Source: an uncultured Pseudomonadales bacterium (lineage in GTDB: Bacteria > Pseudomonadota > Gammaproteobacteria > Pseudomonadales > Azotimanducaceae). From it: a stretch of DNA of 64,000 nucleotides. The translations under genes and the position numbers were made by a program. Positions 6,152 through 7,929 of the stretch are shown here, in pieces. Within the stretch, counting starts at the first letter, position 1; each line of letters opens with the position of its first letter. Where the stretch lies: assembly GCA_951813295.1 (NCBI GenBank), contig CATOTI010000002.1, positions 3,606,522 through 3,670,521 on the forward strand, read 5' to 3'. Under the pieces are notes generated by a model. It ran no database searches. It was given only the letters and a program-made list of their open reading frames with translations, and was not told the origin of the DNA.

Positions 6152-6790
6152 ATGATTACGATTCACGGCTCGCCCGTTTCGCCCTTCGTTCGCAAGACGC
6201 TCGTTTGCCTTATGGAAAAAGGCATCGAGCACGAAGTGAACCCGGTATCACCGTTTCCACCGCCGGCGTCGCATCTCGAGATTTCGCCGCTCGGCAAGAT
6301 CCCGGCGCTGACCGATGGCGACCTCGCGCTGCCTGATTCGTCGGCGATCTGCGGCTACATCGAGAAGAAGCACCCGGAAGCGCCCATGTACCCGAGTGAT
6401 CCGGCCGACTTCGGCCGGGCGCTCTGGTACGAGGACTGGGCCGATAACGAGCTTCCCAAGGCGACAGCGGCCCTCTTCTTCAACCGTGTGGCGGTTCGTA
6501 TGATGAAACGGGAACCGGACGAGGCGGTGATCCAGAACATCATCGACAAGGTGCAGCCTGGTATTTTCGATTACCTCGAAGGCGAGATCGGCGACAAGAC
6601 CTGTCTGGTTGGTGATGCGTTCTCGATTGCCGACATCTCCGTGACGTGTCAATTCATTCAGATGATGTATTCCGGCGAATCACTACCGTCGGAAAGTCAT
6701 CCGAACATCACACGGTTCGTCACGGCGCACATGCATCGCGACTCCTTCAAAACGCTGATCAACAGCGACCCGTTCATGAAACTGGATTGA
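6152..6790 (+). CDS. Glutathione S-transferase family protein
   Basis: Cytosolic GST of 212 residues. The thioredoxin-like N-domain begins ITIHGSPVSPFVRKTLVCLMEK, where Ser/Tyr/Cys active residues normally lie, and carries the glutathione-binding signature PDSSAICGYIEKKH (cis-Pro region GKIPALTDGD, then the S-A pair binding the gamma-Glu). An all-helical C-domain follows, with LVGDAFSIADISV matching the conserved N-capping box. The reaction could be conjugation, isomerisation or dehalogenation. It is coupled to the upstream SnoaL-like gene and precedes the selenocysteine redoxin candidate by about 70 bases, suggesting a thiol-redox theme. Confidence 0.88.
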   Translation: MITIHGSPVSPFVRKTLVCLMEKGIEHEVNPVSPFPPPASHLEISPLGKIPALTDGDLALPDSSAICGYIEKKHPEAPMYPSDPADFGRALWYEDWADNELPKATAALFFNRVAVRMMKREPDEAVIQNIIDKVQPGIFDYLEGEIGDKTCLVGDAFSIADISVTCQFIQMMYSGESLPSESHPNITRFVTAHMHRDSFKTLINSDPFMKLD

Positions 6791-6861
6791 CCGACCGATT
6801 CTTGATCTCGAACGCACGGAAGTGGGAGCCTTCCGCCACTAGAAAGAACTGGGGAGAGGGA

Positions 6862-7437
6862 ATGAAGATTCGAGGAGCCCTGGTGGCGATCGTGCTCGCG
6901 GCGATGACCCAGTTTGCGGCGGCGGATTCGGAATACGTTGCTGCCTGGGGGCCGGCGGTTGGTGCGAACGTGCCGATGCTGGACGCCCTGGATCAGGAAG
7001 GAAATCGACAAACCCTCGAGAGCTTGAGCGGCTCGGGCGGCTTGATTCTGGTGTTTAACCGCTCCGTCGACTGGTGACCCTTCTGCAAACGTCAGTTCGT
7101 GAAACTGAATCAGTTGAAAAGTGAGTTCGAAGCGATCGGTATCAATGTCGCGGGGATGACCTACGACGATCCGAAATTCATCACAGATTTCACGCAGTCA
7201 TCCGAAATCGGCTTCCCGCTCCTGCGCGATGTAGAGCGTGCGCATGTCGAGGCGTGGGGAATCCGTAACGAGGAATACGGTGAGGGCACGTTCGCCTTTG
7301 GGATTCCGCACCCGGGTGTGGTGCTGGTATCGCCCGAGGGGGAGATTCTCGCGAAGTTCGCCAATCCGGGTTACCGCTCGCGACCCGATTGGGATTCGGT
7401 GCTCGACGAAGTGCGATCCGCGGTCGGCGCGAACTAG
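6862..7437 (+). CDS. Redoxin/peroxiredoxin-like protein with probable selenocysteine (in-frame UGA at 7075-7077)
   Basis: Read through one in-frame TGA, this is a single 191-residue AhpC/TSA-Redoxin protein. Residues 1-21 look like a signal peptide (MKIRGALVAIVLAAMTQF), so it is probably periplasmic. The TGA is codon 72 and falls exactly at the first Cys of the thioredoxin-like motif: NRSVDW-U-PFCKRQ, giving UxxC instead of CxxC. Homology continues in the same frame with GINVAGMTYDDPKF and GIPHPGVVLVSPEGEIL, so there is no frameshift. GGGGAGAGG lies just before the ATG. A stem-loop follows the TGA at the spacing of a bacterial SECIS. A nonsense mutation is the alternative, but its exact position at the catalytic residue argues for Sec. 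Confidence 0.82.
7092..7108 (+). promoter_or_regulatory. Candidate bacterial SECIS stem-loop
   Basis: TCAGTT-CGTGA-AACTGA forms a 6-bp stem with a 5-nt loop inside the redoxin coding sequence. Twenty bases separate the UGA (7075-7077) from the loop, within the usual 16-37, and G is the second loop base, as in bacterial SECIS elements bound by SelB. The stem is AU-rich and short, so folding and conservation should be checked. Confidence 0.6.
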
Positions 7438-7455
7438 CCGCTCGTAGAGATCGAC

Positions 7456-7854
7456 GTGGGCGGTATCAAGAACGCACTGAGTTGGGCGGGGATCGTCATC
7501 CTCGGCCTGGTGAACGGAGTCCTCGAAGACCTGCTCTTCGTCACACTCGTCGTGCCGAACTGGCCGGCCAGTTGGGATCTCACCGGGGATATCTTCTGGT
7601 GGTTCACGGTACCGTTCGCGCAGTTGATGGCGCTGGTCGTGACCGGCACGCTGGCCTGGTTTCTCGGCCTTAAGGACATGAAGAAGCTCGCCACGTTCTG
7701 GCTATGCTGGACGCTGGCTCGAACCGCATTTCTCAACTTCGCCAACAATCCGGCCGGCGACATTGTGATCTATCTGATCTGGATCGCTCTCTGGTGCGGT
7801 CTGATCGCGCTCGCCGTCCATTTCTCGAACGGGCGCCGGGCCGCCGCGGGCTGA
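7456..7854 (+). CDS. Small integral membrane protein, unknown function
   Basis: I do not recognise this 132-residue protein. It has about four hydrophobic segments: near residues 5-30 (SWAGIVILGLVNGVLEDLLFV), 45-70 (IFWWFTVPFAQLMALVVTGTLAWFLGL), 75-95 and 100-125 (GDIVIYLIWIALWCGLIALAV), with charged loops between and a basic tail. The start is GTG at 7456, 18 bases after the redoxin stop and preceded by a weak GAGATC. The tight spacing puts it in the same transcript as the redoxin, so it could anchor or feed electrons to it, but no Cys pair or cofactor motif is visible. Confidence 0.65.
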   Translation: MGGIKNALSWAGIVILGLVNGVLEDLLFVTLVVPNWPASWDLTGDIFWWFTVPFAQLMALVVTGTLAWFLGLKDMKKLATFWLCWTLARTAFLNFANNPAGDIVIYLIWIALWCGLIALAVHFSNGRRAAAG

Positions 7855-7888
7855 GCGCGGAATCGACGGCCGGCACAGACGTCGGCGT

Positions 7889-7897
7889 TGGTATACT
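7889..7897 (+). promoter_or_regulatory. Putative extended -10 promoter
   Basis: TGgTATACT matches the sigma-70 extended -10 consensus, 33 bases before the GTG start of the CoA-transferase and just downstream of the previous gene. No convincing -35 was seen, which extended -10 promoters can lack. Confidence 0.35.
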
Positions 7898-7929
7898 CCG
7901 GCGCCGAATTCGTTTGCAGGTTGACCAAC

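Follow-up and report, generated by a model that had tools for sequence, protein, structure and literature searches.

The redoxin gene at positions 6862–7437 of the window, by which we mean the whole stretch of 64,000 nucleotides analyzed here, encodes, with high confidence on the sequence evidence, a selenoprotein in which selenocysteine (Sec) would be inserted at the in-frame UGA at 7075–7077. Because TGA recurs at this alignment column, a covarying hairpin follows it, the sel machinery is present in the genome and TGA-bearing homologues are confined to genomes with selA, we assign the redoxin, by its domain, its motif and published descriptions, to the known Prx-like selenoproteins with UxxC. 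Sec-containing Prx-like proteins with a UxxC site are already described in passages of PMC1088965, PMC2398784 and PMC13188914, and our search of the open-licence literature returned no paper on the present branch of the redoxin. New are the uncharacterized four-helix neighbour of its clade, a SECIS element weaker than the energy rule demands, the lack of any NCBIfam model matching at its cut-off, nine TGA-containing redoxins in one genome and two possible fusions with a DsbD_N domain.

The reading frame begins with the ATG at 6862, contains the TGA as codon 72, continues for 119 open codons (120 had been claimed in an earlier note on this DNA) and ends with the TAG at 7435–7437. Direct reading of the sequence bore out the claim of that note that the TGA falls exactly on the first active-site Cys position of a redoxin (NRSVDW-U-PFCKRQ, with the active site DW-U-PFC). 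Translation table 11 splits the gene in two, 6646–7077 and 7099–7437, and selenium use is hidden in genes that are split in this way and score below the NCBIfam cut-offs. The frame 3′ of the TGA is under purifying selection, with a dN of 0.25–0.31 and 62–73% of the synonymous sites changed in the comparison with seven orthologues. The signal-peptide-like N-terminus suggests that the redoxin is exported to the periplasm. The TGA at 7075 is among 29 TGA-plus-hairpin candidates from a scan of the window, the other 28 of which were judged by sequence context alone. The coordinates of all features are collected in Table 1.

Table 1. Predicted features of the redoxin locus and two paralogous loci of the same genome
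Feature	Position	Strand	Basis or remark
Redoxin gene (AhpC-TSA/Redoxin fold), 191 aa, predicted Sec at residue 72, UxxC active site	6862–7437	+	Sequence reading, Pfam, AlphaFold2, PDB matches
Likely ribosome-binding site GGGGAG	6851–6856	+	Sequence reading; 5 nt before the ATG
Signal-peptide-like N-terminus, residues 1–22	6862–6927	+	Hydrophobic; by eye from sequence and alignment
UGA codon, predicted to be read as Sec	7075–7077	+	42 of 49 loci have TGA here; selA, selB, selC and selD in the genome
Predicted bacterial SECIS hairpin, 6-bp stem (UCAGUU/AACUGA), 5-nt loop CGUGA at 7098–7102 with G at 7099	7092–7108	+	Covariation in 36 distinct sequences; own energy weak
Partner gene, 132 aa, four long helices, likely inner-membrane (predicted)	7456–7854	+	Begins with GTG, 18 nt beyond the redoxin stop
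L022, putative Sec redoxin paralogue	G000:C2:2647345-2647788	-	DsbD_N-bearing
L023, putative Sec redoxin paralogue	G000:C2:3439871-3440332	+	DsbD_N-bearing

Homologous loci were gathered by similarity with a query that had Cys at the Sec position, so that the search did not favour TGA. The 49 loci obtained (L019–L067, among which L039 repeats L030 and L043 repeats L034, L030 and L034 being the genomes G036 and G018) have TGA at the Sec column in 42 cases, Cys in four, TGG (Trp) in one and Thr or Ser in two, the last being Bcp-type paralogues. The Cys/Sec pairs expected by the earlier note are therefore present at this column, and the contrary outcome of homologues with Cys throughout did not occur. 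The Cys forms come from one Rickettsiales MAG and three Parvularculaceae records and are distant, with 33–36% identity. For the protein alignment (A3) and the tree, 36 of the 49 loci were used with L019 standing for the window; L022–L026, L033, L039, L043, L045, L049, L051, L054 and L063 were omitted. W71, Sec/Cys 72 and C75 are invariant in all 36 rows, and the tree separates the four Cys forms from the 32 Sec forms with a support of 99/96. No redoxin homologue was detected at E ≤ 1e-14 in 368 other genomes sampled evenly from the class, presumably Gammaproteobacteria, so that none of them yielded a close Cys form. Two copies are damaged: that of G017, with TGA at the Sec column, is interrupted by a TAA and spread across two reading frames, and L045 (G031:C49:36051-36599) is a decayed Sec redoxin in which TGG occupies the column and TAG and TAA stops lie in frame. 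The host of the latter, G031, shows only selA fragments below the cut-off, yet it possesses another TGA redoxin.

Translated through the TGA, the protein has two Pfam matches that span it: AhpC-TSA (PF00578), with 71.8 bits against a cut-off of 26, and Redoxin (PF08534), with 43.2 bits against 26.6. All 15 NCBIfam matches of the redoxin stay below their cut-offs. The best of them by E-value, the SelL-related NF040769, covers residues 37–135 and scores 47.2 bits where 120 are required, so that the redoxin is not a member by this model; for the leading families, the best E-values obtained with the 36 A3 rows range from 6e-13 to 1.8e-15. The AlphaFold2 model (mean pLDDT 89.8) retrieves Bcp/PrxQ proteins first in a Foldseek search against the PDB, ResA appearing at rank 7 and onward and AhpE at rank 9 and onward, and TM-scores against PrxQ/Bcp and AhpE peroxiredoxins reach 0.89 (by target length). 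The redoxin has the overall fold in common with these peroxiredoxins and differs from them by UxxC in place of their TxxC. With the ResA/DsbE-type thiol:disulfide oxidoreductases it shares a WCxxC-like site, the fold and a likely periplasmic location, whereas it carries Sec for Cys and scores only 36.3 bits for ResA (cut-off 170) and 23.4 bits for DsbE (cut-off 359). The closest description is that of the Prx-like thiol:disulfide oxidoreductase with UxxC/UxxU as listed in Table 1 of PMC13188914, called 'Prx-like protein' in the relevant part of PMC1088965, which likewise combines PF00578, UxxC where Prx has TxxU, a downstream SECIS and Cys homologues. The clade of the window departs from this kind by its membrane-protein neighbour and its weak SECIS, and the match is one to the description rather than to the type sequence WP_010940744.1.

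We consider it rather probable that the redoxin acts as follows. The product would be an exported protein with the active site Trp-Sec-Pro-Phe-Cys, in which Sec replaces the N-terminal nucleophile of a WCxxC motif like that of thioredoxin/ResA within a PrxQ/AhpE/ResA-type fold; we take Sec72 to occupy the position of the first Cys of WCxxC in thioredoxin-type enzymes. In the periplasm the redoxin would probably reduce a peroxide or an oxidized thiol, with formation of a selenenylsulfide to Cys75, and an electron source in the membrane would then reduce it again, perhaps via the neighbouring four-helix protein; its export, substrate and reductant and the role of the neighbour are proposals. It is less probable, though possible, that the selenoprotein works chiefly as a peroxidase of the PrxQ/AhpE type instead of a thiol:disulfide oxidoreductase, as AhpC-TSA is its best Pfam family and Bcp/PrxQ and other peroxiredoxins lead the PDB matches with ResA only at rank 7. 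This reading is opposed by the alignment of the active site with the Bcp-type paralogue L025, in which U72 stands at the Thr of TPGC and Cys75 at its Cys, so that the Prx TxxC motif is absent from the redoxin, and by the W-U-x-x-C motif and the conserved GIPHPG segment, both of which presumably resemble thioredoxin/ResA. Peroxiredoxins proper carry a Thr at the third position before their peroxidatic Cys/Sec.

Insertion of Sec at the UGA would depend on the dedicated machinery, and the expectation that selA, selB, selC and selD lie elsewhere in the genome proved correct: all four were found above their cut-offs, and the absence of selB or selC, named beforehand as grounds for doubt, was not observed. 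The tRNA-Sec (selC) scores 68.3 bits (gathering 47) and is called SeC with the anticodon TCA by ARAGORN; a second tRNA match, with 47.4 bits, scores just above the cut-off of 47. SelB scores 394.4 bits (cut-off 242.25), SelA 540.6 bits (cut-off 267.9) and SelD 272.4 bits (cut-off 125). The four genes are located on contig C1 and the redoxin window on C2 of an assembly that is marked as 7.4% contaminated. A long frame next to selC with one in-frame TGA was rejected as a further Sec gene because the TGA precedes the likely start; the frame resembles a TonB-dependent receptor.

Across 58 relatives (own genome counted), a selA match at E ≤ 0.001 is present in 41, in 39 of them above the cut-off, and the 41 include every genome of the same family (37). 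TGA-bearing homologues (E ≤ 1e-15) occur in 35 of the 41 genomes with selA and in none of the 17 without it (Fisher p = 5e-10, uncorrected for kinship); since the genomes are kin, these are not 58 independent cases. The TGA at the Sec column was read in all 35 genomes, 29 of them among the fetched loci and the others being G016, G017, G023, G024, G031 and G039. A TGA-bearing match (E 2.4e-6) in G037, which lacks selA, was discarded as a Cys protein with the motif GGWCPYC, the TGA being its regular end.

The earlier note had also pointed to a stem-loop at 7092–7108 with a G in the loop, 20 bases after the UGA. The structure and its loop G were recovered, and the distance holds for the apical loop and not for the stem, which begins 14 nt after the UGA. 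The bSECIS model, as laid out in the pertinent section of PMC13188914, specifies an apical loop of 3–9 nt, an upper stem of 4–16 bp, a G within the first two loop positions, 16–37 nt from the UGA to the apical loop and a minimum free energy of at most -7.5 kcal/mol. With a loop of 5 nt, a stem of 6 bp, the G at position 2 and a distance of 20 nt, the window hairpin lies within the first four ranges. The energy result varies with the stretch folded: we obtained -3.7 kcal/mol for the hairpin alone, -4.7 over 42 nt with the hairpin in the fold and -6.5 over 45 nt with the hairpin forced, and the 56-nt fold reaches -13.8, but in a different structure (z = -1.5; 18 of 200 shuffled sequences fold equally well). 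On a strict reading the window hairpin is above the threshold. The 42-nt energy is ≤ -7.5 in 26 of 36 sequences, the window gene and its seven clade-mates being above the threshold, and the hairpin helix is present in the 42-nt fold of 29 of the 36. Because of the weak own energy and the competing 56-nt structure, single-sequence folding could not prove a SECIS, and we relied on covariation and a synonymous-codon null instead.

For this analysis (alignment A1), 36 distinct 60-nt stretches starting at the TGA were taken from the 42 TGA loci, and L039, L043, L046, L049, L054 and L057 were omitted as their 60 nt are identical to those of another locus. Helix columns 19–23 are paired with columns 29–33 in 99.4% of cells, compared to 91.5% in shuffled and 5.6–47.8% in slid alignments; changes on both sides are found in 25 cells (7.9 shuffled), and the covariation score is 0.341 (0.176 shuffled). 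For each of these three measures, none of 500 shuffles was as high. No excess over the shuffles is seen in the number of pairs changed on both sides (2, shuffled 1.5; reached in 272 of 500 shuffles) or in that of further pair types (3, shuffled 3.9; reached in all 500). At the level of single pairs, columns 22 and 30 form UA in 18 sequences and CG in 18, columns 21 and 31 form GC in 28, AU in seven and GU in one, and columns 18 and 34 are paired in 34 of the 36 sequences with four Watson-Crick types. The loop G (G25, second loop position) is invariant in all 36.

We further compared the pairing with a null in which the peptide was held fixed and codons were drawn from the usage of these genes, relatedness being ignored. 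All five pairs are Watson-Crick in 34 of 36 sequences, where 5.6 are expected and the maximum of 5000 draws is 15. Counting only the 17 distinct hairpin cores, 15 have all five pairs against 2.7 expected (maximum 9). None of the four Cys homologues retains all five pairs, and 13 of their 20 cells are paired. The core UCAGUUCGUGAAACUGA is identical in the window and the seven clade-mates L027–L033, the proteins of which are 60–69% identical to the window redoxin. Going by this covariation, the hairpin is real and predicted to guide Sec insertion, such that SelB and tRNA-Sec would translate through the UGA. A SECIS that is weak yet strictly kept suggests that the published energy rule can miss real elements. 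Rfam matches at 6600–7900 were taken as chance (CLRN1-AS1, 25.4 bits against a gathering threshold of 48; sR23, 17.2 against 45).

It is very improbable that the UGA stands for another residue, such as the Trp of code 4, or is decoded by nonspecific read-through. TGG does stand at the column in one decayed relative; however, homologues with a sense codon there have Cys (four loci), the genome possesses a tRNA-Sec with the anticodon TCA as well as SelB, the covarying hairpin is kept at SECIS distance, and TGA serves as the ordinary end of the adjacent partner gene. A premature stop in a Cys redoxin, by pseudogenization or sequencing error, is extremely improbable: seen in one genome only, an intact gene with a lone TGA would give the same picture, and the L045 and G017 copies with their in-frame stops illustrate decay, but the same TGA is found in 35 of the 58 relatives searched, the four Cys loci are distant, with the identity given above, the downstream frame is under purifying selection and the hairpin covaries via synonymous changes. 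The selenoprotein interpretation of the earlier note is thus supported by the machinery, the Sec/Cys pairs and the hairpin covariation, despite the weak fold energy of the hairpin itself.

Directly downstream of the redoxin lies a partner gene that terminates at its TGA and whose model (pLDDT 81.8) consists of helices at residues 2–32, 45–69, 75–95 and 100–131. It has no Pfam match at E ≤ 1 and no match in a fold search against the PDB at E ≤ 0.001. The partner adjoins the redoxin in eight of nine clade loci (L019, L027–L032 and L039, where L030 and L039 are from the same genome), and the ninth, L033, ends before the partner position. The seven tree rows with a partner form one group with a support of 100/100. 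By tblastn at E ≤ 1e-3 it is absent from all other loci, many of which have only about 1.5 kb of flank. Among the 58 genomes, a strong copy is present in two, the own genome and G036, each time next to the redoxin, and weaker matches occur in G020 (E 6e-7) and G032 (E 4e-6). None was found in the 15 other genomes of the genus searched, some of which are incomplete. This pairing suggests a joint function of both proteins, and the four-helix protein may deliver electrons to the redoxin. That the clade possesses a two-gene redox unit, in which an exported Sec redoxin has its own four-helix membrane partner handing electrons to the selenenylsulfide, we regard as unlikely. If true, this would mean that electrons reach a periplasmic selenoprotein by a route not described before, in a bacterial family with many Sec redoxins in use. 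Two further loci are of note. The record L029, titled Alphaproteobacteria, has both the partner gene and a Sec redoxin of 65–66% identity and groups within a clade of Pseudomonadales/Gammaproteobacteria records; it is either a mislabelled MAG or a case of transfer. At G020:C19:123941-125145, the weak partner relative is located about 0.6 kb from a redoxin match without TGA.

A profile search of the own genome yielded 12 redoxin matches, nine with TGA at the active site and three without. Seven of the nine are of the UxxC type (L019–L024 and L080) and two are TxxU-like (L079 and L082); the SECIS was inspected in six of them (L019–L024). Nine TGA redoxin genes would make the genome selenoprotein-rich under the definition given in PMC5029168, namely six or more selenoprotein genes, the phyla named as rich in the corresponding part of that paper being Deltaproteobacteria, Clostridia and Synergistetes. 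The paralogues L022 and L023 have a WUPPC site and carry a DsbD_N domain at the C-terminus, with scores of 33.9 and 32.6 bits against a cut-off of 25, and each is possibly a fusion of a Sec redoxin with DsbD alpha.
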